Shown: piece by piece, positions 11,200-22,342 of the stretch | Position numbering within the stretch: the stretch's first letter is position 1 | How the letters are laid out: each line of letters opens with the position of its first letter | Assembly (NCBI RefSeq): GCF_900103265.1 | Contig: NZ_FMWX01000001.1 | Location: forward strand, 620,001-684,000 | Length of the DNA: 64,000 nucleotides | Reading direction: 5' to 3' | DNA from: Sphingomonas sp. NFR15 | Lineage (GTDB): Bacteria > Pseudomonadota > Alphaproteobacteria > Sphingomonadales > Sphingomonadaceae | Notes under the pieces: generated by a model | What the model saw: the letters and a program-made list of their open reading frames with translations, nothing else | Told to the model about the DNA's origin: nothing | Database searches by the model: none | Position numbers and translations under genes: made by a program

Positions 11200-11312
11200 T
11201 GGCTCTGGCTTATCAAGGCACCCCGGCGCCGCCGCTCAATCCAAATAATGGCACCTTTTATTCGCGATCGAAATCACTTGCCCGCTGCTCCACTTCGGAG
11301 TCGCCATTTTGA
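11199..11312 (+). pseudogene. Truncated small phage ORF coupled to the methyltransferase remnant
   Basis: An ATG at 11199 overlaps the remnant's stop (TGATG) and reads MALAYQGTPAPPLNPNNG. After about 18 codons the sequence turns AT-rich and runs into the 3' end of the opposing DUF262 gene, stopping at 11312. The coupling copies the layout after the intact methyltransferase, so this looks like the beheaded start of the gene that once followed it. Confidence 0.4.
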
Positions 11313-12922
11313 AGTATCCGTAAATTACGGATTCCAAGCCGCATCGCGACGGGATAAATTATCGTGTTCTGCTCAAACAAGAAAAGATCCTTTGATCGCT
11401 GCCTAGTAAATCCCTTCATGTTATCAGAGTCGATAACGTCCATCGCGTGATCTGAAATGACATGAGCTTCCCGTTCATCCCGCGATATATTTCCTTGCAC
11501 TAGCCTCGCTCTAAATTCTGCCGCACTCGTGGGCTCAATCAAAAACCGAGCGCCTTGATCTCCACGATCAATTTTCGGTAGCTTCAGATACATGAAGGCG
11601 TCCGACGAAAATGTTCGAAGAAGATTAGTTCCCGACATTGGGTGCGTGTCATCAGCGCGTCTAGCCAGAGCCAACATCAACGCCTTAACTCGAGCGGCGC
11701 GAAGATCACTCTTCACCTCTGCAATACTTCTCACCGCTGGCGGCTCGCGAAGAGACCATTCAAAAGCGCCTACCATCACAAAATTGCGAAGATCGGTTAT
11801 CGCACTCTCAGATTGACGGCCGGTACCACCGAACAGCTCGGAGTATGTCGAGAGCCAAACCCAGTCTACAAGTTCTTCAGCGAATGCTTCAAATTCACGA
11901 TGTTGAAGCGACGTGGCAATTGCAACGATTTGGACGCGATAAGGAACCAAAGCTGGGTCTGTTATCCCAAATTTCTTCCGAAAGAATCTCGCGGTGTTTG
12001 CAATCCCTGCGAAAGTTAGATCTAGAGTCTTCGGATCGTCCCTCAACCTCCTGCTAACTTCATCAGGATTTGTCTTGTAAATGTCCGCTCCAAGGTTCAA
12101 TTTAAGACAACGAAGAACGATATCTGAGTCGATTTTATGCCATCTCAACGGCGAAAGAAGCTCGTTTCGTAAGTCTTGATCGCGTTTCAACAGATCAAAA
12201 ACAGGTGAGTAAGTGAGTGCATTGAGCATATGCAACTCACTCATATCCGCCCCACGACTATTAACGCGCTCGAAGCTCTTAGTAACAACTTCCAGACTTG
12301 CACTGTTCAACGTTATGATAGGAACTTTATACTCACGAAACGCAGAAGCAACTTCATCTGCCAAATCGATACGCTTCTCTTTTCCGTCCCCTAATCCACG
12401 TTGAAACCTCAAAAGTTCCCTGCTATTTAGCAGGATACTAATTGGTAGATAGCGATACGGATCGGCCTTGAAATCGCTCGGGTCAATGTCAACTCGGCGT
12501 TTGAAACGCTCAGACTCGTCCTCGACATCGAGGTCTGCGTATACGACGAAATCCCTCATCTCGATGTCGCGCTCATCATCGTAACTCACCCAACTCTCGG
12601 TCGCCCGAAGTGCGCCGTAGAGCGTTGAGATGCGCTGCACGCCATCCATCAGATAACGCGTTTCACCCACCGCCTTATCCGTTGGGAGTTGGTGAGGCCC
12701 CAAGCTACTGTAACAGCCGACCTCGTCATTCGAGGTCGCCCATATCATAAGCGCCCCAATCGGCAGGCCAGCGAATATGCTCTCGAAGAACTCTTTTCTT
12801 TGCGTCCAACTCCAGACGAGCGGTCGCTGAAATCGCGGAACGCGGATGCGACCTTGCGCGATATCGTCCAATACCGAGGTCAGGAAAACGACCGTTGGGT
12901 CGGCCGAAAATGTGTCACGCAT
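11258..12922 (-). CDS. DUF262 (GmrS/ParB-like fold) domain protein, third gene of candidate defence operon
   Basis: A 554-residue protein. The DUF262 core is clear: IRVPRFQRPLVWS (26-38, family motif PxxQRxxVW), FAGLPIGALMIW (50-61), the DGVQR nucleotide-site motif (93-97, usually DGQQR) and FERVNSRGADMS (217-228). In the type IV restriction enzyme GmrSD this domain binds nucleotide and partners a DUF1524 HNH nuclease. Here the C-terminal half has no recognisable HNH motif; the nearest feature is HVISDHAMDVIDSDN. The ATG at 12922 overlaps the end of the TOPRIM-like gene by 8 bases. Base composition and codons (TTA, ATA) are visibly AT-richer than the phage genes, suggesting transfer as a block. 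Confidence 0.85.
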   Translation of the reverse strand: MRDTFSADPTVVFLTSVLDDIAQGRIRVPRFQRPLVWSWTQRKEFFESIFAGLPIGALMIWATSNDEVGCYSSLGPHQLPTDKAVGETRYLMDGVQRISTLYGALRATESWVSYDDERDIEMRDFVVYADLDVEDESERFKRRVDIDPSDFKADPYRYLPISILLNSRELLRFQRGLGDGKEKRIDLADEVASAFREYKVPIITLNSASLEVVTKSFERVNSRGADMSELHMLNALTYSPVFDLLKRDQDLRNELLSPLRWHKIDSDIVLRCLKLNLGADIYKTNPDEVSRRLRDDPKTLDLTFAGIANTARFFRKKFGITDPALVPYRVQIVAIATSLQHREFEAFAEELVDWVWLSTYSELFGGTGRQSESAITDLRNFVMVGAFEWSLREPPAVRSIAEVKSDLRAARVKALMLALARRADDTHPMSGTNLLRTFSSDAFMYLKLPKIDRGDQGARFLIEPTSAAEFRARLVQGNISRDEREAHVISDHAMDVIDSDNMKGFTRQRSKDLFLFEQNTIIYPVAMRLGIRNLRILQNGDSEVEQRASDFDRE

Positions 12923-13904
12923 AAGGAACCCTTACCCAGTCTGTGATCGCCTCTAGCGTATTCTGCACACCAACATCCATTCCCTCCGCATCTATCCAAC
13001 CTCGAATTTGCTCGAGGTACTTCTCAAATTGCTGAGCAATATTATTTGAAATTCCATTTCGCAGTGAAATCTTGTCGCGCTGCGAAACGCTCGCATAAAA
13101 ATCTTTGACCTGCTGCGATTCTGGCTTTGGCCATCCAGATTTTAGGTGATAGTGATAGCGCTGCTCGACATTCATTCTTTTGTACGCGTCGACGGCTGCG
13201 CGCCGCATCGGTCGCCTGTCGCTTTTTGCGCCATCTGCCCAGCTCCACAATGCCTTGAGCGGAAGATAATTCTCGATTGCTCTTCGACTGAGGCAATGGT
13301 GCGAAATACCGGCAGCTTGGCAAAAACTCGCCATCGCGTTCGCGCTCGCGCTTCGATGGCCTGGAACCTCTCCGTCACTGTCGAATAGCACCCAACTGTC
13401 GAGCGGACCAGAAGCTCCTCGAGCAACTTGCGCCTCGAGCGATGCTCGAAGTTCGTCCAAGCCCCCGCGGCTGGAAAACTCAACCACCCCTCGCCGCTCG
13501 AAATCAAGAAACATCTCACGCAGGTCGCTGGCCATCATAGCCAACCAAAAATATCGATCATTTCGATCGTTCTCGACCCAAAGCCGTTTAGGTCGGTCCA
13601 GCAGCCTGAGAACCTCGTCCAACGGAAGTTGAATTTGATCTATATTATCGAAATTGCGTCCCGTTGTCGCCACAATCGATCGAAGTCGAAACACTGCTGC
13701 GTCACGAACAGCCCAATCTGTTGCATTGAGCCAGTCGACCTTCCGACTCTGTGATAACTGATTGAACCATTCACTACTTTTCACAGCCACCGGATCTATC
13801 GCATCTACGTAGCATTTAAGCTCCCTCGCTCGATCAAGCAGAACTTCAAGATTTCTCCAATGAGCATCCTCAGCGATTAGTTCACTGTGAATCAGGATAC
13901 GCAT
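12915..13904 (-). CDS. TOPRIM-like protein, second gene of candidate defence operon
   Basis: A 329-residue protein that I do not recognise as a named family. It shows the pattern of an OLD-type TOPRIM domain: an acidic residue in LWVENDRND (Glu111), a DxD in WVLFDSDGE (Asp175, Asp177), and RRAIENYL (207-214), the conserved region seen near the end of many TOPRIM nucleases fused to or paired with ABC-type ATPases. Residues 1-100 and 220-329 have no recognised match. The start is either ATG 13904 or TTG 13913, which overlaps the ATPase stop (TTGA). The frame ends 8 bases inside the DUF262 gene. A metal-dependent nuclease role is inferred from these motifs and the neighbouring ATPase. Confidence 0.7.
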   Translation of the reverse strand: MRILIHSELIAEDAHWRNLEVLLDRARELKCYVDAIDPVAVKSSEWFNQLSQSRKVDWLNATDWAVRDAAVFRLRSIVATTGRNFDNIDQIQLPLDEVLRLLDRPKRLWVENDRNDRYFWLAMMASDLREMFLDFERRGVVEFSSRGGLDELRASLEAQVARGASGPLDSWVLFDSDGEVPGHRSASANAMASFCQAAGISHHCLSRRAIENYLPLKALWSWADGAKSDRRPMRRAAVDAYKRMNVEQRYHYHLKSGWPKPESQQVKDFYASVSQRDKISLRNGISNNIAQQFEKYLEQIRGWIDAEGMDVGVQNTLEAITDWVRVPYA

Positions 13905-13909
13905 CTTAT

Positions 13910-15166
13910 TCAATGAGCCGAAATTCTTAGCTTGGACAAACGCCTCGCCTGGTCGACCGCCTCTCGAAATACCCCCTGTGGCCAGCCACCATGCGGAAAG
14001 CCTTCCTCATCGAATCTTATCGGGCGGAGATCAGAACCTTCAGGGCCACTCGTCACCCAATATACTATAGCATCTTCTGGTTTGAGCCGCTTCTCGACGA
14101 TCGCGATCTGAAGAGCCAGAAGCATACTTTCCGAATGGGTTTCGATAACATGCGAAGCTTTTGAGCCCTGTTCAACACACGAGATGATCTCGTCGGCTAG
14201 GTGAACTGTAGCTGCGGGATGGAGGTGCAACTCAGGCTGCTCAAAAGCCAGGATAGGTGCAACCCCGAGTTGACCCAACATCGCCTGATGGCACAACGTC
14301 ACGACCGGTAGAGCTTGCGCAATGCCTTCGCCAACGTCCCTGACGGCTACATGCATACCCGACGCCCCAAGTAAGTTGAACGGATACAACTGTCGATTGA
14401 ACGCGACCGCTCCATCGGTCTTTGCGAACGTCAACTCGGATTGGCAGGTCTTCATCAACCAAGCAGACACAGCCTCTGCGGCACCATCTTTTGCCTCGAA
14501 GCTCAGCCGAAGCACCTCAGCAACCCCCGAGCCGTCCGACTGAACCCTCGCATCCATACCCGGAAGCAACTCATAGAACCGCGGCACAGTTGCCCTTACA
14601 GCGCCTAACCAATGAACAGAATTACCAAACAAATCTAGCTGATGATTGAGCTGAAACAAGACGAGGTGATCATCGGGATCGTCACATCTTGCCGGAGCAA
14701 GGCCACGAAAATCCCATTTTGTAGCGTTACCTCCGCTTCTTACATCGTAAGATGATTTTATCTTAGTGTCTAATATTGTTCCTTCAAACCCAGAATCTCT
14801 TGTAAGTATTTTGAAACTGGACATGCACTCGCCCAATTCACCTAAACTCGCGATATCAAACTCATAACTGATGCCGCCCCAGTTCAACTTAAATGTAAGC
14901 ACCAAGGCTCCCTTCCTATTCGAAAGGTCTTGGAACCTCGCGTCGCGCAGTGCGGGAGATTTATAATCTAGGATCGTGGCACGTGGCCCCATTTGCCGCC
15001 TCTGGGCTGCTCCGGCGAGGATCGGCAGAAGGCGAAGGGCAGCACTTTTTCCGGCGCTATTCAGACCGAACAGAAGCGTTAGCGGCCTCAGCTCTAAAGT
15101 CTGCGCCTTGTTAAAAGCGCGATACCGAGAGAATTCGATACTCTCGAGGCGGCCGGAAATGCTCAT
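13910..15166 (-). CDS. AAA/ABC-type ATPase (OLD/DUF3696-like), first gene of candidate defence operon
   Basis: A 418-residue ATPase with Walker A GLNSAGKS (34-41), an ABC-type region DVGEGIAQALPVV, Walker B ILAFEQPELHLHP (305-317) and switch motif THSE (343-346). The end, EGFPHGGWPQGVFREA, resembles DUF3696-type ATPases, in which a WP-G-F motif closes the protein. The frame is open further upstream to 15328, but the ATG at 15166 has GAGGG ten bases before it and starts the conserved fold (MSISGRLESIEFSRYRAF). It heads a minus-strand operon with the TOPRIM-like and DUF262 genes. ATPases of this type act as the sensor/motor in Gabija-, Septu- and OLD-like systems. Confidence 0.85.
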   Translation of the reverse strand: MSISGRLESIEFSRYRAFNKAQTLELRPLTLLFGLNSAGKSAALRLLPILAGAAQRRQMGPRATILDYKSPALRDARFQDLSNRKGALVLTFKLNWGGISYEFDIASLGELGECMSSFKILTRDSGFEGTILDTKIKSSYDVRSGGNATKWDFRGLAPARCDDPDDHLVLFQLNHQLDLFGNSVHWLGAVRATVPRFYELLPGMDARVQSDGSGVAEVLRLSFEAKDGAAEAVSAWLMKTCQSELTFAKTDGAVAFNRQLYPFNLLGASGMHVAVRDVGEGIAQALPVVTLCHQAMLGQLGVAPILAFEQPELHLHPAATVHLADEIISCVEQGSKASHVIETHSESMLLALQIAIVEKRLKPEDAIVYWVTSGPEGSDLRPIRFDEEGFPHGGWPQGVFREAVDQARRLSKLRISAH

Positions 15167-15624
15167 CAATGTACCCTCTGTGCGGCAGAGAGACATATGC
15201 AGAAACCGAGACACGCGCCACCCAATAGGGCGTGGCTCCCCGCGCTCGCGGCACATGCAGTTAGATACCCGACCAGCCTTAAGTGACCTCACGACTAGCA
15301 ACATAAAAAAAGCGATATACCTCACCAAGTTGAGCGTATTGCCTCAACATTGGTTCAACGTGTATGCCAATATCTGACTAACCTAAAATTGAATACGCCG
15401 CGCACCTCAAAATAAAGGGGCCCTTAACCGCTTTGGCCCGCCACTTTTATTACCTAGGACCCGTGATCTACCGTACTTTTTACTTGCAATGATGGATTAT
15501 CTGCGCCCATATCCAAGTCGTCGAGGCAGTGACGCCACGGCATAGGAGCCCGACCGGGCCGACTAGGACAGGGACAACGGGGCGGGCCCGGTGCTCGCCC
15601 CTACTCCCAAGCGGAGAACGCAAG
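15167..15624 (+). other. Gene-free region between defence cargo and phage genes
   Basis: About 460 bp without a convincing gene. The left part should hold the minus-strand promoter of the ATPase operon; a weak candidate (TTGGTG, 17 bp, TATGTT) lies near 15300-15330 on the minus strand. The right part contains GACTAGGACA (15561-15570), a copy of the leader found after the hammerhead ribozymes. It also has a GC hairpin with 6-bp arms (GGGGCG/CGCCCC, about 15579-15601) before the first small phage gene. The composition changes from AT-rich to GC-rich near 15480, which probably marks the edge of the cargo. Confidence 0.5.
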
Positions 15625-15762
15625 ATGATCGATACCACCACCGCACGGCTTATCGCCTCAACCGATATGATGCTCGCCGCCGCGCGCCGCGATACCGCCC
15701 CCAAGGGCAAGCCCCGCATCGTGCCAACCATCGCAGCCATGTTCAGCGGCAAGGGGGCCTAG
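15625..15762 (+). CDS. Small phage protein, unknown
   Basis: A 45-residue ORF with a good ribosome binding site (GCGGAGAACGCAAG before ATG 15625). It starts MIDTTTARLIASTDMML and ends FSGKGA. The stop is five bases before the next start, and that leader reads CCTAGGACG. No family recognised. Placement at the head of the plus-strand run and codon use like its neighbours support it. Confidence 0.6.
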   Translation: MIDTTTARLIASTDMMLAAARRDTAPKGKPRIVPTIAAMFSGKGA

Positions 15763-15766
15763 GACG

Positions 15767-16060
15767 ATGGACGCACCTCGTACCGTCCGTCAGATGCGCA
15801 ACCGACCGACATCGTACGAAGTCGGCTTATACGACCGCGCAACGGGCGCCATGTTGAAACGCCTGGCATTCACCCCGCGGCGTACCAAGGGACAGTTGCT
15901 GAGCATTGCGTGCGCCAATAGCGCCGCAATCACCGCGATCGAACCCGATGCTGACACCATGACATACACGAACGGATCGTGGTGCACGGCTCGGCTAAGG
16001 ATCGCGTGGACGGGAAACACCGAGCGTGATTGCGCGTGCGCCATGGAGATCGCAGCGTGA
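15767..16060 (+). CDS. Small phage protein, unknown
   Basis: A 97-residue protein starting MDAPRTVRQMRNRP with AGGA just upstream. A central YEVGLYDRATGAMLKRLAF suggests a small beta-sheet fold. Two cysteines near the C-terminus (CACAM) may bind metal. The stop overlaps the GTG of the next gene (GTGA at 16057-16060), so translation is coupled. No family recognised. Confidence 0.65.
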   Translation: MDAPRTVRQMRNRPTSYEVGLYDRATGAMLKRLAFTPRRTKGQLLSIACANSAAITAIEPDADTMTYTNGSWCTARLRIAWTGNTERDCACAMEIAA

Positions 16061-16305
16061 CCGCCCCTTTCGACACTCTCGCGCTGGCGGAGGCGCTCAA
16101 GGGCACCCCCTTGGGTAAGGATGGCGCGGAAGCCGTGGCGCGTGCTATGGCTGACGTTGCAATGGCAGACGTAGCAACGAAGCGCGATCTTACCGAGCTG
16201 GGTGACCGGCTTGAACGCGCCATGCTCCGTCAGACGATAGCCCTCGGTGGCATCGTCGCGGCGATCGCCGCCGTTGCGACCACCGTCCTAAAGCTCCTCT
16301 CCTAA
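16057..16305 (+). CDS. Coiled-coil protein with C-terminal membrane helix (DUF1640/CCDC90-like)
   Basis: An 82-residue protein from a GTG start coupled to the previous stop. Residues 1-55 are helical with heptad-like spacing (VATKRDLTELGDRLERAML), followed by one hydrophobic helix IALGGIVAAIAAVATTVLKLL at the C-terminus. This layout matches small phage and bacterial DUF1640-like proteins that sit in the inner membrane with a coiled coil in the cytoplasm. Function is unknown. The TAA at 16303-16305 is directly followed by the first hammerhead ribozyme. Confidence 0.7.
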   Translation: MTAPFDTLALAEALKGTPLGKDGAEAVARAMADVAMADVATKRDLTELGDRLERAMLRQTIALGGIVAAIAAVATTVLKLLS

Positions 16306-16380
16306 GGCGAAACGTCGCGGCCCGCCGCAAGCGGGTCGCGCACGTCCGGGCGCGGTGAGCGTGCGCCCGCTGATGATGCC
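16306..16380 (+). ncRNA. Type II hammerhead ribozyme 1 (slightly degenerate)
   Basis: It starts right after a TAA stop. Order: GGC (stem II 3' strand), GAAA (16309-16312), stem III, GUC with predicted cleavage between C16346 and C16347, stem I, CUGAUGA (16370-16376), U, GCC (stem II 5' strand). Stem III pairs ACGU with ACGU plus a 10-bp inner helix across one bulged C. Stem I is seven perfect pairs (CGGGCGC/GCGCCCG). All core bases are present. The one oddity is an extra U at 16377 between the core and stem II, which may weaken activity. Structure was drawn by hand. Confidence 0.8.
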
Positions 16381-16406
16381 TGCTCATATGAAGGGACTAG
16401 GACACC

Positions 16407-16544
16407 ATGACGACCCAGACCAACACCGCAGCCGTGTCGCTTATCAAGCGCGTCGATCTGACCAAGCGCGCCCCCATCGCAATGCCAATCATCGCCACCG
16501 TCGCCATGGGCGCCCGCCCGGCGCGCCGCCCCCGCCACGGATAA
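16407..16544 (+). CDS. 45-residue phage ORF lying between two hammerhead ribozymes
   Basis: The start ATG follows the leader GGGACTAGGACA (16393-16404), which contains AGGA. The product begins MTTQTNTAAVSLIKRVDL and ends in a basic tail ARRPRHG. Its TAA at 16542-16544 abuts the second ribozyme. Cleavage by both ribozymes would release a 228-nt RNA (16347-16574) carrying just this gene. No family recognised. Confidence 0.6.
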   Translation: MTTQTNTAAVSLIKRVDLTKRAPIAMPIIATVAMGARPARRPRHG

Positions 16545-16607
16545 GGCGAAACGCGCGGCGCAAGGTCGCGCGTCTGGCGGAGCAGCCCACGCCGCCACTG
16601 ACGAGCC
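16545..16607 (+). ncRNA. Type II hammerhead ribozyme 2
   Basis: It begins at the base after a TAA stop. GGC, GAAA (16548-16551), stem III with seven perfect pairs (ACGCGCG/CGCGCGU), GUC with predicted cleavage C16574/U16575, stem I with six perfect pairs (UGGCGG/CCGCCA), core CUGACGA (16598-16604; position 7 is free in the consensus) and GCC closing stem II with GGC. Every conserved core base is present. Confidence 0.92.
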
Positions 16608-16630
16608 GGGCATACGAAGGGACTAGGACA

Positions 16631-16816
16631 ATGTTTGACGCAATCGAGAACGCTTTCCCCCACCTGATCCGCGCCATCCGCCGTGCCAACGGCATGACGC
16701 ATATGGAAGCCGTCGGCGTGATCTATGCCCACCGCTACGGCGATGGGTGCGGCGGGGTAATCCGTCGCGCCGTGAACGCGCGCCACTACCGCCTCGCCCT
16801 CAAACTCGCAGCGTAA
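16631..16816 (+). CDS. Small phage protein, unknown
   Basis: A 61-residue protein starting MFDAIENAFPHLIRAIRR directly after leader GGGACTAGGACA (16619-16630). It is helical with many arginines and ends RHYRLALKLAA. This could be a nucleic-acid or membrane-associated peptide, but nothing specific is recognised. It heads the RNA segment between ribozymes 2 and 3. Confidence 0.6.
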   Translation: MFDAIENAFPHLIRAIRRANGMTHMEAVGVIYAHRYGDGCGGVIRRAVNARHYRLALKLAA

Positions 16817-16829
16817 GGGGGTGGTGCCC

Positions 16830-17567
16830 GTGGCCTACCAGAACGAAGCCGCCGCCGCATATGACGGCATGATTGCCGCGCTCGCGCAGCCCCTCACCCA
16901 TCCGGCGCACCTCGCGCTTGACCGGGCCTGCATGGCAAAGCGGGGCGGCATCTATGGCGGGGTGCACCTCGAGACGGCCGCTTGCCTGTGGGAGGCGGTG
17001 CTCGACCTCGAGCAGATCGACGCAGGCGACCTCTCCACGCCCGAACAGATCCGCGCGCAGGCTATCCACGACTGCCGCGCCGCCATCGGGTCCAGCCACC
17101 TACGACTAACGGTCGTCGGCTGGACCGATGCCGTAGATGCGGCGTGGAAAGCCGTTGACGATCCGACCGGCAATGCGCCGGGCCAATACACGGAAAGCTT
17201 CGATTGGGACTTCGTGCCCGGCTGGATCATCGCCAACGTCGATTGGAGAAACCCGCACGGGCCGACGATTAACCCGCCCGCGCCCCCCGCGCCGCCACCG
17301 CCAGCCGCTGAGGCCGGCGCGCCGGCGCCGCGAATCAGTAGCGCGCACGGGATCGTCGTCACCTGCCCTAAGTGCGGATCGCCGAACGTGTGCTGCGATG
17401 CCGCCGCGCGCTGGGATATCGAGGCTCAAGACTGGGTGCTTGCCGGCGCACACGACGCCAAGACGTGTGAAGACTGCGGACACGATTCGGACGCTTTCAT
17501 CGAAACTGCACTCGACGCGCTCACCCCCGCGCAAAATGCCGTCGTTTTCAACGAAGCGGAGCGCTGA
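16830..17567 (+). CDS. Phage protein with C-terminal zinc ribbon
   Basis: A 245-residue protein. The GTG at 16830 has AGGGGG seven bases upstream and is chosen over the GTGs at 16821 and 16824. The N-terminal 150 residues are helical (starting AYQNEAAAAYDGMIAALA), then a proline/alanine-rich linker leads to a zinc ribbon CPKCGSPNVCCD...CEDCGHD. Proteins of this layout are common but uncharacterised in phages; metal binding is inferred from the paired CxxC. The stop is three bases before the next ATG. Confidence 0.7.
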   Translation: MAYQNEAAAAYDGMIAALAQPLTHPAHLALDRACMAKRGGIYGGVHLETAACLWEAVLDLEQIDAGDLSTPEQIRAQAIHDCRAAIGSSHLRLTVVGWTDAVDAAWKAVDDPTGNAPGQYTESFDWDFVPGWIIANVDWRNPHGPTINPPAPPAPPPPAAEAGAPAPRISSAHGIVVTCPKCGSPNVCCDAAARWDIEAQDWVLAGAHDAKTCEDCGHDSDAFIETALDALTPAQNAVVFNEAER

Positions 17568-17570
17568 ACG

Positions 17571-17906
17571 ATGGCCTTCCTCAGCACGCCCGATCTACGG
17601 AAGCTGCAAGACATGGTGATGGCCGGGGACGAGATTTCCCGCGCCATAGCAATCGGTATCCTCACCAAGGCCGCCGACGGGATCGCAGACGCGAGTCTGC
17701 GGGAGCAAGCTTTCGACCGGTACGCCACCGACGAAATCGAAATCGACGACGAACCCGCCACGTCCCCGGCCAACAATGGGACATGGGTCGCAGCGTGGGT
17801 GTGGATCGAGCAGCCCGATTCGGACGCCTGCGCGACGTGCCGCGATGCGATCGAAGCGCGGCTCCTCCCCTGCGATGAATGCGGCGCGCAAGACGAAGAC
17901 GAATAG
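17571..17906 (+). CDS. Small acidic phage protein with two CxxC pairs
   Basis: A 111-residue protein starting MAFLSTPDLRKLQDMVMAG. The first 60 residues are helical. The C-terminal part has CATC and CDEC, suggesting a zinc-binding site, and ends in an acidic tail. Its TAG stop shares its last G with the first G of ribozyme 3. No family recognised. It closes the RNA segment between ribozymes 2 and 3. Confidence 0.65.
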   Translation: MAFLSTPDLRKLQDMVMAGDEISRAIAIGILTKAADGIADASLREQAFDRYATDEIEIDDEPATSPANNGTWVAAWVWIEQPDSDACATCRDAIEARLLPCDECGAQDEDE

Positions 17907-17968
17907 GCGAAACGCGCGGCCCCGCGCCGCGCGTCCGGAGGGATGGCCCGCCCCTCCGCTGATGAGCC
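17906..17968 (+). ncRNA. Type II hammerhead ribozyme 3
   Basis: GGC overlaps the upstream TAG by one base. GAAA (17909-17912) leads into stem III of nine perfect pairs (ACGCGCGGC/GCCGCGCGU) with a five-base loop. GUC gives predicted cleavage C17935/C17936. Stem I is seven perfect pairs (CGGAGGG/CCCUCCG). The core CUGAUGA (17959-17965) and GCC complete it. No core base is missing. The gene after it starts 25 bases downstream. Confidence 0.93.
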
Positions 17969-17992
17969 GGGCATATGACTAGGATAGCACCC

Positions 17993-18598
17993 ATGGAAAT
18001 CGCATTCGCCAACAAGACGGCCGATCAGCAGCGCGCGCAGATCGAGGAGACCGCCCGCCGCTTGGTCGCAAACGAAGTACGCTATTGCGTGTCCGCGCTG
18101 GTAAGCACGCTCGCCGCGCGTGAATGGGACGGTAGCGACGGTATCGATCCGGACGATCTTTATCGTTTGGCCGAGCGCGAGCCGGACGCGGACGACTACC
18201 GCGACGCTGCGCGCGAAGCTGGGGTGTTCGATACGCCCGCCAAGCCTGGCGGCGGGGCTCGCTCGCTCGTGGTCGAGCGTGACCAGTTCAAGGTGTGGTG
18301 CTTCGTGACGACCGACGAAGACGGCGACGAGGACGATCGCGGCACTAGCGACGACGGAACAGAGGTAGGCGCGTGGCGGGCGGCATTCGATTCGCTCGAC
18401 CTCGACCGCCCACAGGGCTCGGAAGCGTATGAGCACTGGCTAGTTTCGGACTGGATGGCCGACAAGCTGGCCGCCGCCGGCGAGAGCGTAGCCCGCGATG
18501 TCGCCGGCCTCACCATTTGGGCGCGGTGCACCACCGGTCAGATGATCGCGGCAGATGCCGTAATTGAACAGATCGCCCGCGAAGTGTTGGAGGCGTAA
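17993..18598 (+). CDS. Phage protein, unknown
   Basis: A 201-residue protein. The ATG at 17993 has AGGA eight bases upstream, within the leader GACTAGGATAG; an in-frame ATG at 17975 has no ribosome binding site. The product is acidic (TTDEDGDEDDRGTSDDGTE around 105-125) with helical ends. A tryptophan-rich VWCFVTT segment and WLVSDWMADKLA suggest a small globular fold. Not recognised. It is the first gene on the RNA released after ribozyme 3. Confidence 0.65.
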   Translation: MEIAFANKTADQQRAQIEETARRLVANEVRYCVSALVSTLAAREWDGSDGIDPDDLYRLAEREPDADDYRDAAREAGVFDTPAKPGGGARSLVVERDQFKVWCFVTTDEDGDEDDRGTSDDGTEVGAWRAAFDSLDLDRPQGSEAYEHWLVSDWMADKLAAAGESVARDVAGLTIWARCTTGQMIAADAVIEQIAREVLEA

Positions 18599-18600
18599 CC

Positions 18601-18822
18601 GTGGCAACCGCACGCGAGCACACCCGCACCATCATCACCGCCACGGACTCGGCTTGGGATGCAATCCGCTATTTCAACGGCCGCGTTTACAACGGGCATG
18701 GCGAGCTGAGCGACCCGAGCTACGCCCGCTCCCAGCTTCGGGACGCAAAGCGCAACATAGAAATCGCGATCGCAGCCATCGACGCGGCCGGCGACGTGGG
18801 CTGGACCAAGCACGACGATTGA
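18601..18822 (+). CDS. Small phage protein, unknown
   Basis: A 73-residue protein from a GTG with GGAGG about ten bases upstream. It starts MATAREHTRTIITATDSA and is helical in its second half (SQLRDAKRNIEIAIAAID). No family recognised. The TGA is one base from the first base of ribozyme 4. Confidence 0.65.
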   Translation: MATAREHTRTIITATDSAWDAIRYFNGRVYNGHGELSDPSYARSQLRDAKRNIEIAIAAIDAAGDVGWTKHDD

Positions 18823-18823
18823 C

Positions 18824-18892
18824 GGCGAAACCCCCGCCCGTGGCGAACGGGCGGGGGTCGCGCGGGACTGGCCGAACCGCGCCTGATGAGCC
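18824..18892 (+). ncRNA. Type II hammerhead ribozyme 4
   Basis: GGC (18824-18826), GAAA (18827-18830), then stem III of twelve perfect pairs (ACCCCCGCCCGU with ACGGGCGGGGGU, loop GGCGA). GUC gives predicted cleavage C18859/G18860. Stem I has six perfect pairs (GCGCGG/CCGCGC), followed by core CUGAUGA (18883-18889) and GCC. This is the most stable of the four by stem length. Confidence 0.94.
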
Positions 18893-18911
18893 GGCCATAG
18901 GACACGACACC

Positions 18912-19967
18912 ATGAAGAAATCGAAGATCCATCAGCCCGGCGAAGCGGCACCCTATGCGGACGCTGCCGCCCGCCAGTATCTCGAATGGCTGGCAGACCG
19001 GCGCGGCATCACCGTGCCCGAGGGCGCAATCTTCCGCCTTGATGGCGTGTGGTCGAGCTATGGCAAAGGCGCTGTGTTGCTCGTCGCCATGCCCGGCTAT
19101 GGCGTGCCCGATGTCGTCACAATGGAAACGCTCGACGATTCGGGCGCGGTGATCCGGTCGCAGCCGGTCGCAGTATCGCCCGCCGGCGCAATTTCGCTGC
19201 GGGCGGATCAGGTGCAAGCCGCCACCGGCCTCGCGAAGGTGCGCCAGCCCCGCCCCGCGAAGCGCCGCCCTACGCTCGACCCGCGCCGCGCCCTGAGCAT
19301 GTCGGCCGAGGAGATGGCGGCGTATTGCGCCGCCCACCGTGGCGATTCGCGCGTCGCGGAGCAGCAGCACGGGCCAGCGGCTGAACCAATGCCCGCGCCT
19401 GCCCCTGATCCCGCGTTGGTGGAGCGAGCGGTCGAGCCCGTCGCCCCGTCCGCTGTGCCGGTCGAACAGCCCGCCGGGGATGTTGTGGCGGCGCTCCTCG
19501 ATCGTATCGCCAAGCTCGAAAACGCGGTGGATGTGTTGCTCCTCCACGCGCTTGAGGTGGACACCCCCGCCCGTGGGAATGACACACCCCCCGCCGTGGA
19601 AAAAGAGCCCGCGCAAGTTGAGCCCAAGTTGCCGCGAGAGGCACGGATACGAATCGTTCGTCGCTATCTGGCCATGCGGGAGGAGCGCGAGCAGCTGCGC
19701 GCCCGAGTCGCTGAGCAGAACAGGCGCCTTGATACGCTGGCATGGGAGAATGACGCCGCCTTGGCTGATCTCGCAGCCGCGCAGACCCGCGCCGATCGCG
19801 CGGAGACGACCGTGCGCCATGGCGTCGACGAGATGCACGGGCGCGTGGTGAAGCTCGAACGCGATGTCTCCACCTGGCAGCGCCGGGCGGAACAGGCGGG
19901 ATGGAAACCGCAACCGTTCCAGCTCGTCGCGCTGATGACGGGGAAACGGCCGGAGGCGGCAGCGTGA
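18912..19967 (+). CDS. Phage protein with C-terminal coiled coil, unknown
   Basis: A 351-residue protein beginning MKKSKIHQPGEAAPYADA, after leader CATAGGACACGACACC. Residues 1-110 form a globular domain (FRLDGVWSSYGKGAVLL), residues about 110-220 are proline/alanine-rich, and residues about 230-330 are a long charged coiled coil (MREEREQLRARVAEQNRR and similar). The stop overlaps the ligase GTG by four bases. It is the first gene downstream of ribozyme 4. Not recognised; a scaffold or DNA-associated role is possible. Confidence 0.65.
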   Translation: MKKSKIHQPGEAAPYADAAARQYLEWLADRRGITVPEGAIFRLDGVWSSYGKGAVLLVAMPGYGVPDVVTMETLDDSGAVIRSQPVAVSPAGAISLRADQVQAATGLAKVRQPRPAKRRPTLDPRRALSMSAEEMAAYCAAHRGDSRVAEQQHGPAAEPMPAPAPDPALVERAVEPVAPSAVPVEQPAGDVVAALLDRIAKLENAVDVLLLHALEVDTPARGNDTPPAVEKEPAQVEPKLPREARIRIVRRYLAMREEREQLRARVAEQNRRLDTLAWENDAALADLAAAQTRADRAETTVRHGVDEMHGRVVKLERDVSTWQRRAEQAGWKPQPFQLVALMTGKRPEAAA

Positions 19968-20797
19968 CAGCGGAGATAATCCCCTTCCAGCCGCCGCCGC
20001 TCGCGCCGCGTAACCCGCGCTTCGTGCCCGGCCCGACGGAGGTCGTGCAGTTGGCCGGGATGTGGGATGGCGGCCCCCTCCCCGTGGGATGGGATGCCGA
20101 GGAGAAGATCGACGGCATCCGGTGCGCGTGGATCGAGGGACAGCTATACAGCCGCGAAGGGGCCGGACTTGAGATTCCGCACGTCGCCGCTGAGCTTGCG
20201 AGGCTCGAGCGCCGTTTCGGACAACGCATGATGGTGGATGGAGAGTATCAGGAGCCGGGCGGCTTCCTCGATACGCTTGCCTGGCACTCCTCCCGTGGCA
20301 AACGCAAGGCGACGGGCACGTTCCACCTGTTCGATGCTGTACCGCTCGACGACTGGCGCGCGGATGCCTGCGAGGAGCCGTTGACGGAGCGCAGGCGCTT
20401 CATCGCCGCCGCAATAGGCGATTGGGAGCCGCGGCACCTCCGCCGCGTCCTACCCTTGCCCGTGGGAAACCGTCGCGACGTCGAGGATCTTGCGGCGGCG
20501 GTGTGGGCGCGCGGTGGTGAGGGGCTGATGCTCAAGGATGGCGCCAGCCTCTACCGACGCGAGCGATCGACCTCCTGGCTCAAGGTCAAGCGCAAGCTGG
20601 CGCTGAGCGGTATCGTTCGCGAGGTTCTGCATGGCGGCAAGGCCCTCTCCGTGGAGATCGGAGGCCGGAAGGTGCGCGTTTCCTCGCAGCTGCGCCCCAC
20701 CCCGTCCGCGGGAATGCACGTCTCGATTGAGGCGATGGAATGGAGTAGCACGGGCGCGCTGCGGCAAGGAATCGCCGTCGGCATAGGAAGGGACTAG
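19964..20797 (+). CDS. ATP-dependent DNA ligase (nucleotidyltransferase core)
   Basis: A 277-residue protein from a GTG coupled to the upstream stop. It carries the covalent nucleotidyltransferase motifs in order: motif I EEKIDGIRCAW with adenylated Lys48, motif III VDGEY (about 95), motif IV GEGLMLKDG (about 188) and motif V SWLKVKRKL (about 207). A short OB-fold-like tail follows. The length is like minimal phage ligases. It seals nicks, presumably in phage DNA. Because ribozymes in the same transcript produce RNA ends, an RNA substrate cannot be excluded, though the motifs fit DNA ligases better. The stop lies inside the next gene's leader. Confidence 0.85.
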   Translation: MTAEIIPFQPPPLAPRNPRFVPGPTEVVQLAGMWDGGPLPVGWDAEEKIDGIRCAWIEGQLYSREGAGLEIPHVAAELARLERRFGQRMMVDGEYQEPGGFLDTLAWHSSRGKRKATGTFHLFDAVPLDDWRADACEEPLTERRRFIAAAIGDWEPRHLRRVLPLPVGNRRDVEDLAAAVWARGGEGLMLKDGASLYRRERSTSWLKVKRKLALSGIVREVLHGGKALSVEIGGRKVRVSSQLRPTPSAGMHVSIEAMEWSSTGALRQGIAVGIGRD

Positions 20798-20800
20798 GAC

Positions 20801-21184
20801 ATGGGCGACTACAGCAAGCAGCGGATGCAGGTGAACAACGCGCAGGATCTGCGCTTTGATGGTCAGCTGATCCAGGAATACTCGACGCAAAATCGCGACG
20901 GCACCAAGGATCGTTGGACAGAGATCCGCCTCTGGGAAACCGAGGGCGGCTCTTGGATCGTTGAACAGGTCGGCTGTTCGAAGCGCGCGGGCGAAAGCAA
21001 CCTGCGCGACGCACTCGTGTTCGAGGAAGTTCGCAACGAGTTCGAGGAATCTGTCAGCGACGCCGAGGCGAAAGATTATCAGCGGGAGCTCCACGAAAAG
21101 GTTATGACCTTCCTCGGCTGGACCGCCGTGGCAAAGGCGTTCGCCAAGCAGGCCGGCTGGGAAGTGGTGCGTCACGTACCGTGA
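20801..21184 (+). CDS. Phage protein, unknown
   Basis: A 127-residue protein. Its leader GGGACTAGGACA (20790-20801) is identical to those after ribozymes 1 and 2, but no ribozyme precedes it. The first half (DLRFDGQLIQEYSTQNRDG) is beta-rich; the second is helical and charged. Its stop overlaps the next GTG by four bases. Not recognised. Confidence 0.65.
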   Translation: MGDYSKQRMQVNNAQDLRFDGQLIQEYSTQNRDGTKDRWTEIRLWETEGGSWIVEQVGCSKRAGESNLRDALVFEEVRNEFEESVSDAEAKDYQRELHEKVMTFLGWTAVAKAFAKQAGWEVVRHVP

Positions 21185-21447
21185 AGCCGGACCGAACGGA
21201 GGCGCAGGTGCGGGCGACGCTTGATCGCCTGCGTACCGAGCGCAACGTCAGCCTCGCGGCGCTGTCCCGCATGATCCGCCGCAACGAGGCGTATCTGCAA
21301 CAGTTCGTGTCGCGCGGTACGCCTGCGCGCCTGGCCGAGGATGATCGCCGGATGCTGGCGATCTTCTTCAACATCGACGAGCGCGAACTCGGCGCGCGTG
21401 ACCCCTGGGTGCCAGCTCAGACGCAGAAAAGCCGGGCAAGGGGATAA
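21181..21447 (+). CDS. Small helix-turn-helix DNA-binding protein
   Basis: An 88-residue protein from a GTG overlapping the previous stop. ERNVSLAALSRMIRRNEAYL (about 20-40) is an XRE-like helix-turn-helix, and QQFVSRGTPARL resembles the DNA-binding half of LexA/S24-type repressors that have lost the peptidase half. It is the last gene of this plus-strand run; its stop lies inside a hairpin terminator. A regulator of the accessory operon is a reasonable guess. Confidence 0.65.
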   Translation: MKPDRTEAQVRATLDRLRTERNVSLAALSRMIRRNEAYLQQFVSRGTPARLAEDDRRMLAIFFNIDERELGARDPWVPAQTQKSRARG

Positions 21448-21461
21448 CCCCCCTGCCCGGC
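21431..21461 (-). terminator. Hairpin terminator shared by converging operons
   Basis: GCCGGGCA (21431-21438) pairs perfectly with TGCCCGGC (21454-21461), with extra G-C pairing inside. On the minus strand the hairpin is followed by TTTTCT, so it can end the late structural operon without Rho. On the plus strand it overlaps the end of the HTH gene and lacks a U-run. Convergent operons meet here. Confidence 0.8.
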
Positions 21462-21553
21462 CTCAGCTTACCAAACCGTTTCGTTTCGTGCGTTGTGAAA
21501 GTGTTGGCAATTCAGGCATCGCGCCCCAGCCGCTCCCTCAACTCACGTTTCGA

Positions 21554-22342
21554 TCAGATCATCGACATAAGCTCGAACTCGGTTTCGTAACGTCCGGCCT
21601 TCACCCCGCCCGTGGCGTAGGGCAGCGTCTTGAACCACCCGAGGTACGTCTTCGCCTGGCGCGTGACCGTCGCCGCCGGGTCGAAGCACCAGTACGAGAC
21701 GCCACGCTTGCCGAGCCCCTCCGCGAGCGGCCGGAACTTCTGTTCCCAATCCTCATCGCTGAGCCAGCCGAACTTGAGGTTGAGCGAGCGGAAGATGAGG
21801 CCAGCCGCTTCGTCGGGAACTCCCCACCTCGTCACATCGAGGGTGCCGAGGTCGGTCGTATCGAGCTTGAAGTCCTTGTCGTAGTAGGTGGCGGGCGTGA
21901 GCCGCTGTCCGAGGATCAGGCTCGAGGCGCTGAAATCGCCGGTGTGACCGCCGATGTCGATGCGCCAGTACCGCGCTACGATGGGCGCGCCGAGCATCAG
22001 GTGGGAATGGTAGAGACCGTCGCCGCGCGTGATCGCGGGATCAATGAAGGGGCGATCGCCGCTGTCGTAGAGCACTCCACCATTCCCCACCGGCGCATTG
22101 TCCAGGCGGAGGCGGATCGTCGTGCCCGGCAGCGCCGACGCGGCGATCAGCGCGCAGAAGTCGATCGATTGAGCGGCGCCGAAATCCCCCGATACCCACG
22201 CGTTCGCCGGCCCGTTGGTCTGCCAGATCAGGCCGATGTGCTTGGGATAGCCGAGATGCACCGCCGGCCGGCTCGCGCGCTGGTTGCCGGTAGCGATCGT
22301 GCCCAGCGCGAGCGGGACGACTGCGAAAGGAAGCTCGATCAT
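21554..22342 (-). CDS. Phage tail-associated protein, unknown
   Basis: A 262-residue protein at the far end of the late operon. Stretches such as KHIGLIWQTNGPANAWVSGDFG and YWRIDIGGHTGDFSASS look like a galactose-binding or discoidin-type beta-sandwich, as seen in minor tail proteins that touch carbohydrate. The start is one base past the upstream gene's stop codon. Its distance from the tail tip genes makes a virion role uncertain. No catalytic motif is seen. Confidence 0.6.
   Translation of the reverse strand: MIELPFAVVPLALGTIATGNQRASRPAVHLGYPKHIGLIWQTNGPANAWVSGDFGAAQSIDFCALIAASALPGTTIRLRLDNAPVGNGGVLYDSGDRPFIDPAITRGDGLYHSHLMLGAPIVARYWRIDIGGHTGDFSASSLILGQRLTPATYYDKDFKLDTTDLGTLDVTRWGVPDEAAGLIFRSLNLKFGWLSDEDWEQKFRPLAEGLGKRGVSYWCFDPAATVTRQAKTYLGWFKTLPYATGGVKAGRYETEFELMSMI

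Follow-up and report, generated by a model that had tools for sequence, protein, structure and literature searches.

We confirmed, on sequence evidence, four type II hammerhead ribozyme motifs on the + strand of the window, the 64-kb stretch of DNA analyzed here, all of them located between genes. The surrounding region is likely a prophage operon; terminase, portal, and tail fibre genes lie near the array, and the region falls within a 57,375-base virus record in IMG/VR. The four hammerheads (copies 1 to 4) separate five gene blocks:

15767-16305, + strand: gene block 1, ORF A (97 aa, 15767-16060) and ORF B (82 aa, 16057-16305)
16306-16380, + strand: copy 1, type II hammerhead, predicted cleavage after C16346; extra U16377 between A9 and stem II
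16381-16406, + strand: leader after copy 1, pseudoknot tail GCTCA, then AAGGGACTAGGA, likely ribosome binding site
16407-16544, + strand: gene block 2, ORF C (45 aa)
16545-16607, + strand: copy 2, type II hammerhead, predicted cleavage after C16574; RF02276, 30.8 bits
16608-16630, + strand: leader after copy 2, tail GGGC, then AAGGGACTAGGA, likely ribosome binding site
16631-17906, + strand: gene block 3, ORFs D (61 aa), E (248 aa), and F (111 aa), with gaps of 4 and 3 nt
17906-17968, + strand: copy 3, type II hammerhead, predicted cleavage after C17935; RF02276, 32.0 bits
17969-17992, + strand: leader after copy 3, tail GGGC, then ACTAGGA
17993-18822, + strand: gene block 4, ORFs G (201 aa) and H (73 aa), with a gap of 2 nt
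18824-18892, + strand: copy 4, type II hammerhead, predicted cleavage after C18859; RF02276, 30.5 bits
18893-18911, + strand: leader after copy 4, tail GGCCA, then ATAGGA
18912-21447, + strand: gene block 5, ORF I (351 aa), ORF J (ATP-dependent DNA ligase-like, 19901-20797), and ORFs K and L

ORF B belongs to PHROG 17872, a family of unknown function. The only wide gaps in the operon, 86-101 nt long, are those occupied by the copies; at each of the seven other junctions between ORF A and ORF L, the neighboring ORFs overlap or lie 2-4 nt apart. The placement next to stop codons described in an earlier note on this DNA was confirmed: TAA codons ending at 16305 and 16544 directly adjoin copies 1 and 2, the first base of copy 3 is the last base of a TAG, and the TGA before copy 4 ends at 18822, one base before the motif. 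A start codon follows 19-26 nt 3' of each motif. No promoter-like sites beyond chance expectation were found; the blocks are presumably co-transcribed.

Core, stems, and pseudoknot of the four copies

All four elements of the earlier note were recovered on the + strand at the positions listed above, and its cleavage positions (C16346, C16574, C17935, and C18859) are the sites predicted here. A scan for core plus stems over both strands of the window returned exactly these four matches, copy 1 only if an extra base was allowed in the core pattern. The core-only pattern matched six sites in the 4.4-Mb genome, namely, copies 1 to 4 and two others (L002 and L007), for which the stem scan found no stems even at relaxed thresholds; GCGAAAC and GTC are fixed in this pattern, so other forms of stem II or of the cleavage site are missed by it.

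Each copy contains the type II hammerhead core (CUGANGA, GAA, A15.1-U16.1, H17, and G10.1-C11.1) in the type II order, with loops closing stems I and III and stem II open. The claim of an intact core stands for these required bases; the core region as a whole is not identical in all four because an additional U separates A9 from stem II in copy 1. Counted from A15.1-U16.1, stem III comprises 14 pairs in copy 1 (with one bulge and a wobble) and 9, 9, and 12 pairs in copies 2 to 4, which agrees with the previous counts for copies 3 and 4 and replaces the 7 pairs previously given for copy 2; the stem ends 29-41 nt past the preceding stop codon. The stems had also been described as completely different, which is not the case for copies 2 and 3: they have a common 5' strand of stem III, ACGCGCGGC, and one pair differs (G.U versus G-C).

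The Rfam type II model, proposed previously as a check, is matched by copies 2 to 4, which align to positions 1-66 of 66 of RF02276 (Hammerhead_II) but score 30.5-32.0 bits, below the gathering score of 37, which is a library cut-off and not a structural feature. The corresponding E values were 0.015-0.035 in a scan of the 64 kb and 3.1e-6 to 7.5e-6 when RF02276 alone was run against the virus record. Copy 1 reached 22 bits, the lowest of the four, in a short permissive search only. The copies have the permutation, core, and stem order of this family and differ from the model, whose stem II has 2 pairs, by a 3-bp stem II and, in copy 1, by the extra U. Minimum-energy folding reproduced the three-stem hammerhead in copies 3 and 4; copy 1 folded into stems III and I, and copy 2 into stem III only. 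The fold z-score was -2.90 for copy 4 and unremarkable for copies 1-3 (-1.18, 0.55, and 0.05, respectively).

Covariation of the stems was weaker within the four copies than had been claimed, but became evident for stems I and III once relatives were included. Six related loci supplied 14 elements, in which 91 of 98 stem III cells were paired (65.0 ± 4.4 with swapped partners; none of 1000 swaps reached 91), as were 83 of 84 stem I cells (47.8 ± 4.9; none of 1000 reached 83). Stem II, paired in 39 of 42 cells, lay weakly above the swaps, 34 of 1000 of which reached 39. The loop I-tail pseudoknot could form 5, 4, 4, and 5 bp in copies 1 to 4, and swaps, which gave 2 to 6, were not clearly worse; the match within the four copies was not decisive, and the related arrays were needed. 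Over the 14 elements, the pseudoknot runs summed to 64, compared with 48.2 ± 3.0 for swapped partners, and none of 2000 swaps reached 64. These swap statistics ignore the relatedness of the elements and take the best-paired reading where several are possible. The pseudoknot between loop I and the 3' tail is present in the majority, not all, of the known type II members (PMC3088659). At the level of sequence, this analysis demonstrates the core, the three stems, the loop I-tail pseudoknot, the order, the strand, and the placement between stop and start codons.

Related prophage loci

Locus L318, from genome G228 of the same genus, contains an array, and genes B, D, I, J, and K have orthologs there. 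In the related prophage arrays, two-sided changes preserve the pairing of stem I, stem III, and the loop I-tail pseudoknot. Copies 3 and 4 both have orthologs in L318, the former with such two-sided changes; one stem III pair is lost between copy 4 and its counterpart L318c, and two of eight between copy 2 and L318a. The window has ORFs G and H between copies 3 and 4, where L318 has a 233-aa ORF between the orthologous ribozymes, and ORFs C, E, F, G, and H had no match at E ≤ 0.01 in 8,001 bases of L318. Judging from these ORFs, the genes that lie between orthologous ribozymes are exchanged.

As in L318, a related ligase gene is preceded by type II elements in L138 (genome G355, same family), L282, L284, and L289; these four loci and L318 have one to three elements, compared with four here, and other gene blocks between them. 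Where hosts of the ligase relatives are named, most are sphingomonads, and 14 of 17 ligase-bearing relatives had no element in the flanks examined. Pattern matches passing the stem test occurred in 2 of 295 genomes of the genus and 2 of 298 of the family, our own included in both cases, with a strict pattern that misses most extra-U forms. Neither near-identical DNA nor, by tblastn, ORF F was found in INPHARED, in which the L037 array also had no match. ORF G was detected only in its own genome among the 295 of the genus, and searches of viral contigs with ORFs F and B returned only their own record.

Predicted transcript cutting and alternative readings

We consider it highly probable that these are four type II hammerheads, one in each of the wide gaps of what is probably a prophage operon, predicted to split its transcript into five mRNAs. 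Hammerheads as a class cleave after C17 and produce a 2',3'-cyclic phosphate on the upstream fragment and a 5'-OH on the downstream one, and by this known chemistry each copy would be cut after C17 with the same ends. With one cut per hammerhead, one long transcript would become five mRNAs, of which those of blocks 2-4 would measure 228, 1361, and 924 nt, respectively. The hairpin topology proposed in the earlier note is supported by the sequence: stem III would cap the upstream 3' end and stem I the downstream 5' end. Topologically, only the type II order would give a closed hairpin at both new ends, so that no reading frame would be cut in a released mRNA, and each would keep a ribosome binding site of its own. 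Such cutting could provide small, exchangeable gene blocks with independent stability and dosage.

A chance origin of the four elements is very unlikely as judged from sequence controls. Five scrambled cores gave no match in 755,229 bases of viral loci searched on both strands, compared with 116 matches to the true core, one of which is copy 3 from our own prophage. With an extra base allowed, scrambled cores matched 0, 0, and 1 times and, in a second set that covered 2.2 Mb, 0, 1, 1, and 1 times. For 140 distinct phage matches to a pattern that does not demand pairing (repeats and our own prophage record removed), stem III extended by at least 4 further pairs in 107 (6.6 ± 2.6 with swapped partners), and stem I had at least 4 pairs in 125 (8.6 ± 2.9). 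It is hardly conceivable that the hairpins are GC-rich inverted repeats that arose by chance, or that they are terminators or another riboswitch. In favor of such readings, one could point to the GC content of 65% and to a weak match of copy 1 to the fluoride riboswitch (RF01734). That match reached 17.6 bits where 34 is needed; terminator-like sites number two in 15300-21700, compared with 5.1 in shuffled sequence, and both are on the - strand; and the stems covary, which, with the empty or nearly empty scrambled-core controls, argues against all such readings. Some copies, above all copy 1, could be decayed, inactive relics: copy 1 has the extra U beside its core and the lowest Rfam score, and copy 2 misfolds in the energy model. 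When any base was allowed at the site between A9 and stem II, however, an extra base recurred in 116 distinct phage elements (U in 99, A in 15), which argues against simple decay of copy 1. Such elements reach 54.6 bits in Rfam (L070:2377; L043:3452 is likewise above the cut-off), so the extra U is no novelty either, and the extra-U form is the first element in four of the six related loci. We therefore regard relics among the copies as unlikely. An extra nucleotide at the same place in a viroid hammerhead core was reportedly described by De la Pena and Flores in 2001.

Two further readings accept the motifs as ribozymes. The motifs might have been kept as the shared boundary of exchangeable gene cassettes, as recombination junctions or as insulators for newly gained genes, with mRNA cutting secondary. 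The replacement of ORFs G and H by the 233-aa ORF and the lack of matches to five ORFs in L318 fit this view, but a single pair of arrays was compared, the difference at ORFs E and F has a ribozyme-less edge at the D/E junction, and a relative of ORF C might escape detection because this ORF is very short. Moreover, two-sided changes that keep pairing in the stems and pseudoknot fit selection on RNA structure and are not needed for recombination; we consider a primary boundary role quite improbable. Alternatively, translation could gate the ribozymes. The footprint of a ribosome at a stop codon extends over downstream bases, here GGCGAAAC, and a ribosome halted at the abutting stop would cover them, so that the core would fold only after release. 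Consistent with gating, 176 of 328 phage elements start -2 to +6 nt from the stop of a long ORF (11.7 ± 3.8 expected at random positions; 22 on the opposite strand), and in Streptomyces phage Paedore 6 of the 12 elements begin no more than 6 nt past an annotated stop. Yet genome compaction alone predicts equal placement, the other 152 of the 328 elements misfit, with a second peak at 17 nt, and in phage R4 an annotated stop lies within 6 nt of the start of only 2 of the 9 elements, although the R4 CDS calls look doubtful there. Gating is accordingly a doubtful possibility. Equally tentative is a combined scheme in which type II hammerhead arrays would act as translation-gated dicers in phage operons: with each ribozyme beginning at a stop codon, the terminating ribosome would mask the core, cutting would follow its release, and the ribozyme would mark the edge of an exchangeable cassette leaving the operon transcript as a hairpin-capped mRNA that has a ribosome binding site of its own.

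Comparison with known hammerhead arrays

The earlier note had suggested that an array parceling out an operon was new. Clustered prophage hammerheads had already been reported, and their processing of transcripts into operon- or single-gene mRNAs proposed, by Perreault et al. in 2011 (PMC3088659); the array described here is therefore a clear new example, not a new kind. In that work, three tandem arrangements, from A. tumefaciens, A. caulinodans, and C. scindens, were cleaved in vitro, and one was cleaved in E. coli (PMC3088659). As in those clusters, several close hammerheads flank single genes or short blocks in a prophage, and the type II members have the loop I-tail pseudoknot (PMC3088659); the differences are another phage, other genes, and four elements here that are all type II, each at most one base from a stop codon.

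The terms "stop codon" and "translation" are absent from the main text of that paper (PMC3088659), and no statement of a stop-codon placement rule was found in searches of the open-licence PMC literature on phage or prophage hammerheads and operons. What this analysis adds is that a start at a stop codon is common in phage elements and that gene content is exchanged between orthologous ribozymes. The role of prokaryotic hammerheads was listed as an open question in a 2017 review (PMC6155905), and the present array is a clean case: its orthologs occur in a related prophage, and placement at the stop codon gives a rule that can be tested.

Streptomyces phages Paedore and R4, with 12 and 9 type II hammerheads, respectively, in the stretches examined, resemble this prophage in having type II arrays among small hypothetical genes near one genome end. 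Phage R4 has long been used in the laboratory, and its nine elements would allow a test of the idea in a standard host. These arrays differ from the one described here in that they are larger and carry annotated genes other than those of the window, and in R4, 6 of the 9 elements lie inside annotated CDSs.

Four predicted hammerheads in a prophage operon

In a likely prophage operon made up of + strand ORFs A to L (15767-21447; J resembles an ATP-dependent DNA ligase), scanning for the hammerhead core together with its stems identified four elements between genes:

16306-16380, + strand, type II hammerhead motif (copy 1)
16545-16607, + strand, type II hammerhead motif (copy 2)
17906-17968, + strand, type II hammerhead motif (copy 3)
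18824-18892, + strand, type II hammerhead motif (copy 4)

All four follow the order stem II, GAAA, stem III, TC, cleavage site, stem I, CTGANGA, and stem II, which, as read from the sequence, is that of type II hammerheads; core and stems at 16306-18892 (+) thus bear out the permutation proposed in the earlier note. Stem II has 3 pairs in every copy. In copies 1 to 4, respectively, stem III has 14, 9, 9, and 12 pairs, with one bulge and one wobble in copy 1, and stem I has 8, 6, 7, and 6 pairs; the earlier stem III counts for copies 2, 3, and 4 were 7, 9, and 12. The core bases, previously described as intact throughout, are present in all four copies, but copy 1 carries one additional U (U16377) at the boundary between A9 and stem II; nor are the stems completely different in sequence, given that copies 2 and 3 have a common stem III 5' strand. 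Across the whole genome, a core-only pattern matched copies 1 to 4 and two further places, which had no stems in the scan, relaxed thresholds included. Energy folds were mixed: copies 3 and 4 folded as the hammerhead, copy 1 formed stems III and I, and copy 2 formed stem III only.

In the 64 kb scan with the Rfam type II model (RF02276), the check proposed earlier, copies 2, 3, and 4 scored 30.8, 32.0, and 30.5 bits, respectively, with E values of 0.015-0.035; these scores fall short of the gathering score, which is 37. Copy 1 was not matched in that scan and reached 22 bits in a permissive search of 181 bases. When RF02276 alone was run on a 57 kb IMG/VR record, copies 2 to 4 had E values of 3.1e-6 to 7.5e-6 and copy 1 was again absent from the matches; this record is 100% identical to the window across the 17,728 bases fetched and so represents the same or a near-identical genome, not independent evidence. 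The fluoride riboswitch model matched copy 1 weakly (window 16297-16389; 17.6 bits against a cut-off of 34), a reading that was rejected; the match probably reflects a chance resemblance in GGCGA and GCUGAUGA.

With the start codons that we chose, the junctions containing copies 1 to 4 span 101, 86, 86, and 89 nt; of the seven ribozyme-free junctions, four have gaps of 4, 3, 2, and 3 nt and three overlap by 4, 67, and 4 nt. The ribozymes thus fill the only wide gaps of the operon, delimiting the blocks A-B, C, D-E-F, G-H, and I-J-K-L. As claimed earlier, a start codon follows each element, at 26, 23, 24, and 19 nt. Within 15300-21700, sigma-70-like promoters did not exceed chance (one, on the - strand, against 0.9 expected), so a single operon transcript is inferred. 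The leader of ORF K (window 20781-20800), GAAGGGACTAGGAC, is identical to those of ORFs C and D; because no ribozyme precedes K, this leader is probably a shared phage ribosome binding site. Downstream, the - strand encodes portal, terminase large subunit, and tail fibre genes. Two other features lie upstream:

8069-10033, + strand, DNA methyltransferase-like ORF
13910-15328, - strand, AAA-type ATPase (PF13175, PF13304), within the 11258-15328 region

Two poorly characterised ORFs adjoin the ATPase (window 11258-15328, - strand), and these four ORFs could constitute a defence module.

Pairing in viral loci and in related arrays

The viral sets are samples: the core-plus-stem scan covered the first 80 of at least 120 viral stretches and yielded 116 elements in 62 loci, including copy 3 of the window's own prophage and a few that overlap one another. 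Five scrambled cores yielded 0 elements in the same 80 loci; when one additional base was permitted, such controls produced 0, 0, and 1 elements there and 0, 1, 1, and 1 in 237 loci (2.2 Mb). Pattern matches were also taken without demanding stems, with repeats and the own record removed and the best-paired reading chosen where several were possible, which introduces a small bias towards pairing. At least 4 further stem III pairs were present in 107 of 140 distinct matches (6.6 ± 2.6 with swapped partners) and at least 4 stem I pairs in 125 of 140 (8.6 ± 2.9); a second set (n = 176) gave 127 (11.0 ± 3.0 swapped) and 123 (9.7 ± 3.0 swapped), respectively.

In G228, which belongs to the same genus, the order is B, element, D, element, 233-aa ORF, element, I, ligase, and K, where the aligned parts of B, D, I, ligase, and K are 45, 73, 44, 56, and 61% identical to the window; ORF C had no match in this stretch (L318). 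Elements also lie upstream of a related ligase in four more loci (L138, L282, L289, and L284). The L284 element and the first in L282 were detected only by the search without stem demand, and L282a, L282b, and L284a, individual elements of these loci, have one stem II mismatch each. Among 14 elements, 91/98 stem III cells are paired (65.0 ± 4.4 swapped) and 83/84 stem I cells (47.8 ± 4.9), values reached in 0/1000 swaps each, compared with 39/42 for stem II (36.0 ± 1.1; 34/1000 swaps), and the run sum of the pseudoknot between loop I and the 3' tail is 64 (48.2 ± 3.0; 0/2000 swaps), all these swap statistics ignoring relatedness. With two-sided changes at 5/7 stem III and 6/6 stem I positions, the covariation claimed earlier is upheld by the relatives. 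Between copy 3 and its ortholog L318b, stem I differs by two two-sided changes and the pseudoknot shifts from GCCC/GGGC to GCCT/AGGC; between copy 4 and L318c, it shifts from TGGCC/GGCCA to GGTC/GACC. Counting against covariation, stem III lost one pair between copy 4 and L318c and 2/8 between copy 2 and L318a. Pseudoknot runs of the four copies alone are indecisive (5, 4, 4, and 5 matched; 2 to 6 mismatched); loop-tail runs in 328 phage elements average 3.22, compared with 2.52 ± 0.05 with swapped tails, and 135 of the elements have runs of at least 4.

Between orthologous ribozymes and flanking genes, gene content was exchanged (window 16821-18822 versus L318:2728-3522): the window carries E-F and G-H, and L318 one 233-aa ORF without a match to those.

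Among 17 ligase-bearing loci (L278-L286, L288-L295; own excluded), the fetched flanks contained elements in 3 (L282, L284, L289) and none in 14, some of which appear to be a single genome sampled twice (L288 and L278; L290 and L280). The strict pattern occurred in 16/295 genomes of the genus and 24/298 of the family sample, the stem test being passed only by the window's genome plus G228 and plus G355, respectively; these counts are lower bounds, since most extra-U forms and other forms of stem II escape this pattern.

Extra bases, tails, and stop codons

Of 329 distinct elements, 116 carry a single additional base at the boundary of A9 and stem II (U 99, A 15, G 1, C 1), a proportion that reflects a deliberate search with base identity left free, not natural frequency. 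Stem I tends to be longer in these elements (relatedness ignored), and the first element has the extra-U form in 4/6 related loci (window 16377, L138:1008, L282:6932, L289:658).

NTCAG, the reverse complement of core CTGAN, occurs within the first 14 tail nt of 35/328 elements (L014, L026, L027, L037, L038, L054, L057, L060, L075, L195, and other loci), compared with 12.4 ± 3.2 in shuffled tails; the word GTCA is almost as frequent (34). In 25/35, N and the variable core base form a pair (13 T-A, 12 C-G; the others are 3 T-G, 4 T-T, and 3 T-C), with Fisher p 1.5e-5 when the 7 T-T and T-C rows are dropped and relatedness is ignored. The loop I-tail run is at most 3 in 31 of the 35. Re-pairing of such a tail with the core could follow cleavage or take its place.

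Of 328 distinct phage elements, 176 start -2 to +6 nt from an ORF end, counting ORFs with a minimum of 60 open codons (30 where they meet a contig edge), compared with 11.7 ± 3.8 at random positions and 22 on the other strand; 152 have no such placement, and a second peak lies at 17 nt. An open-frame start codon lies within 90 nt downstream in 309/328, 181 of these at 20-30 nt. In the stretches fetched, Streptomyces phages Paedore (L298) and R4 (L297) have 12 and 9 type II elements. By the deposited Paedore annotation, 6/12 begin 1-6 nt past a stop and 11/12 finish 13-28 nt ahead of a start; in R4, an annotated stop lies no more than 6 nt from the start of only 2/9. Six of the nine R4 elements fall within annotated CDSs, and these CDS calls may be wrong. 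Both compaction and gating by a terminating ribosome are compatible with the stop-codon tendency.

Predicted processing and known clusters

Hammerhead cleavage produces a 2',3'-cyclic phosphate and a 5'-OH. Beyond the core, stems, pseudoknot pairing, placement, and conservation of the array, which are demonstrated here, cleavage is predicted at copies 1 to 4; it would leave hairpin-capped RNA ends and may change mRNA stability.

The earlier suggestion that an operon-parcelling array is new does not hold: Perreault et al. 2011 (PMC3088659) already describe type II hammerheads, the pseudoknot, prophage clusters, and the operon-processing idea. They also report strongly slower cleavage when the pseudoknot of a type II element is broken, and found that three tandem arrangements cleaved in vitro and one did so in E. 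coli. Of 12 virus records searched with RF02276, namely the window's own and 11 others chosen mainly because they hold many elements, four gave 11 matches each. In the open-licence literature on phage and prophage hammerheads, we found no statement of the stop-codon tendency or of cassette exchange between orthologous ribozymes, and these two are the contribution made here; the four-copy array itself is a further case of the clustered prophage hammerheads already described.
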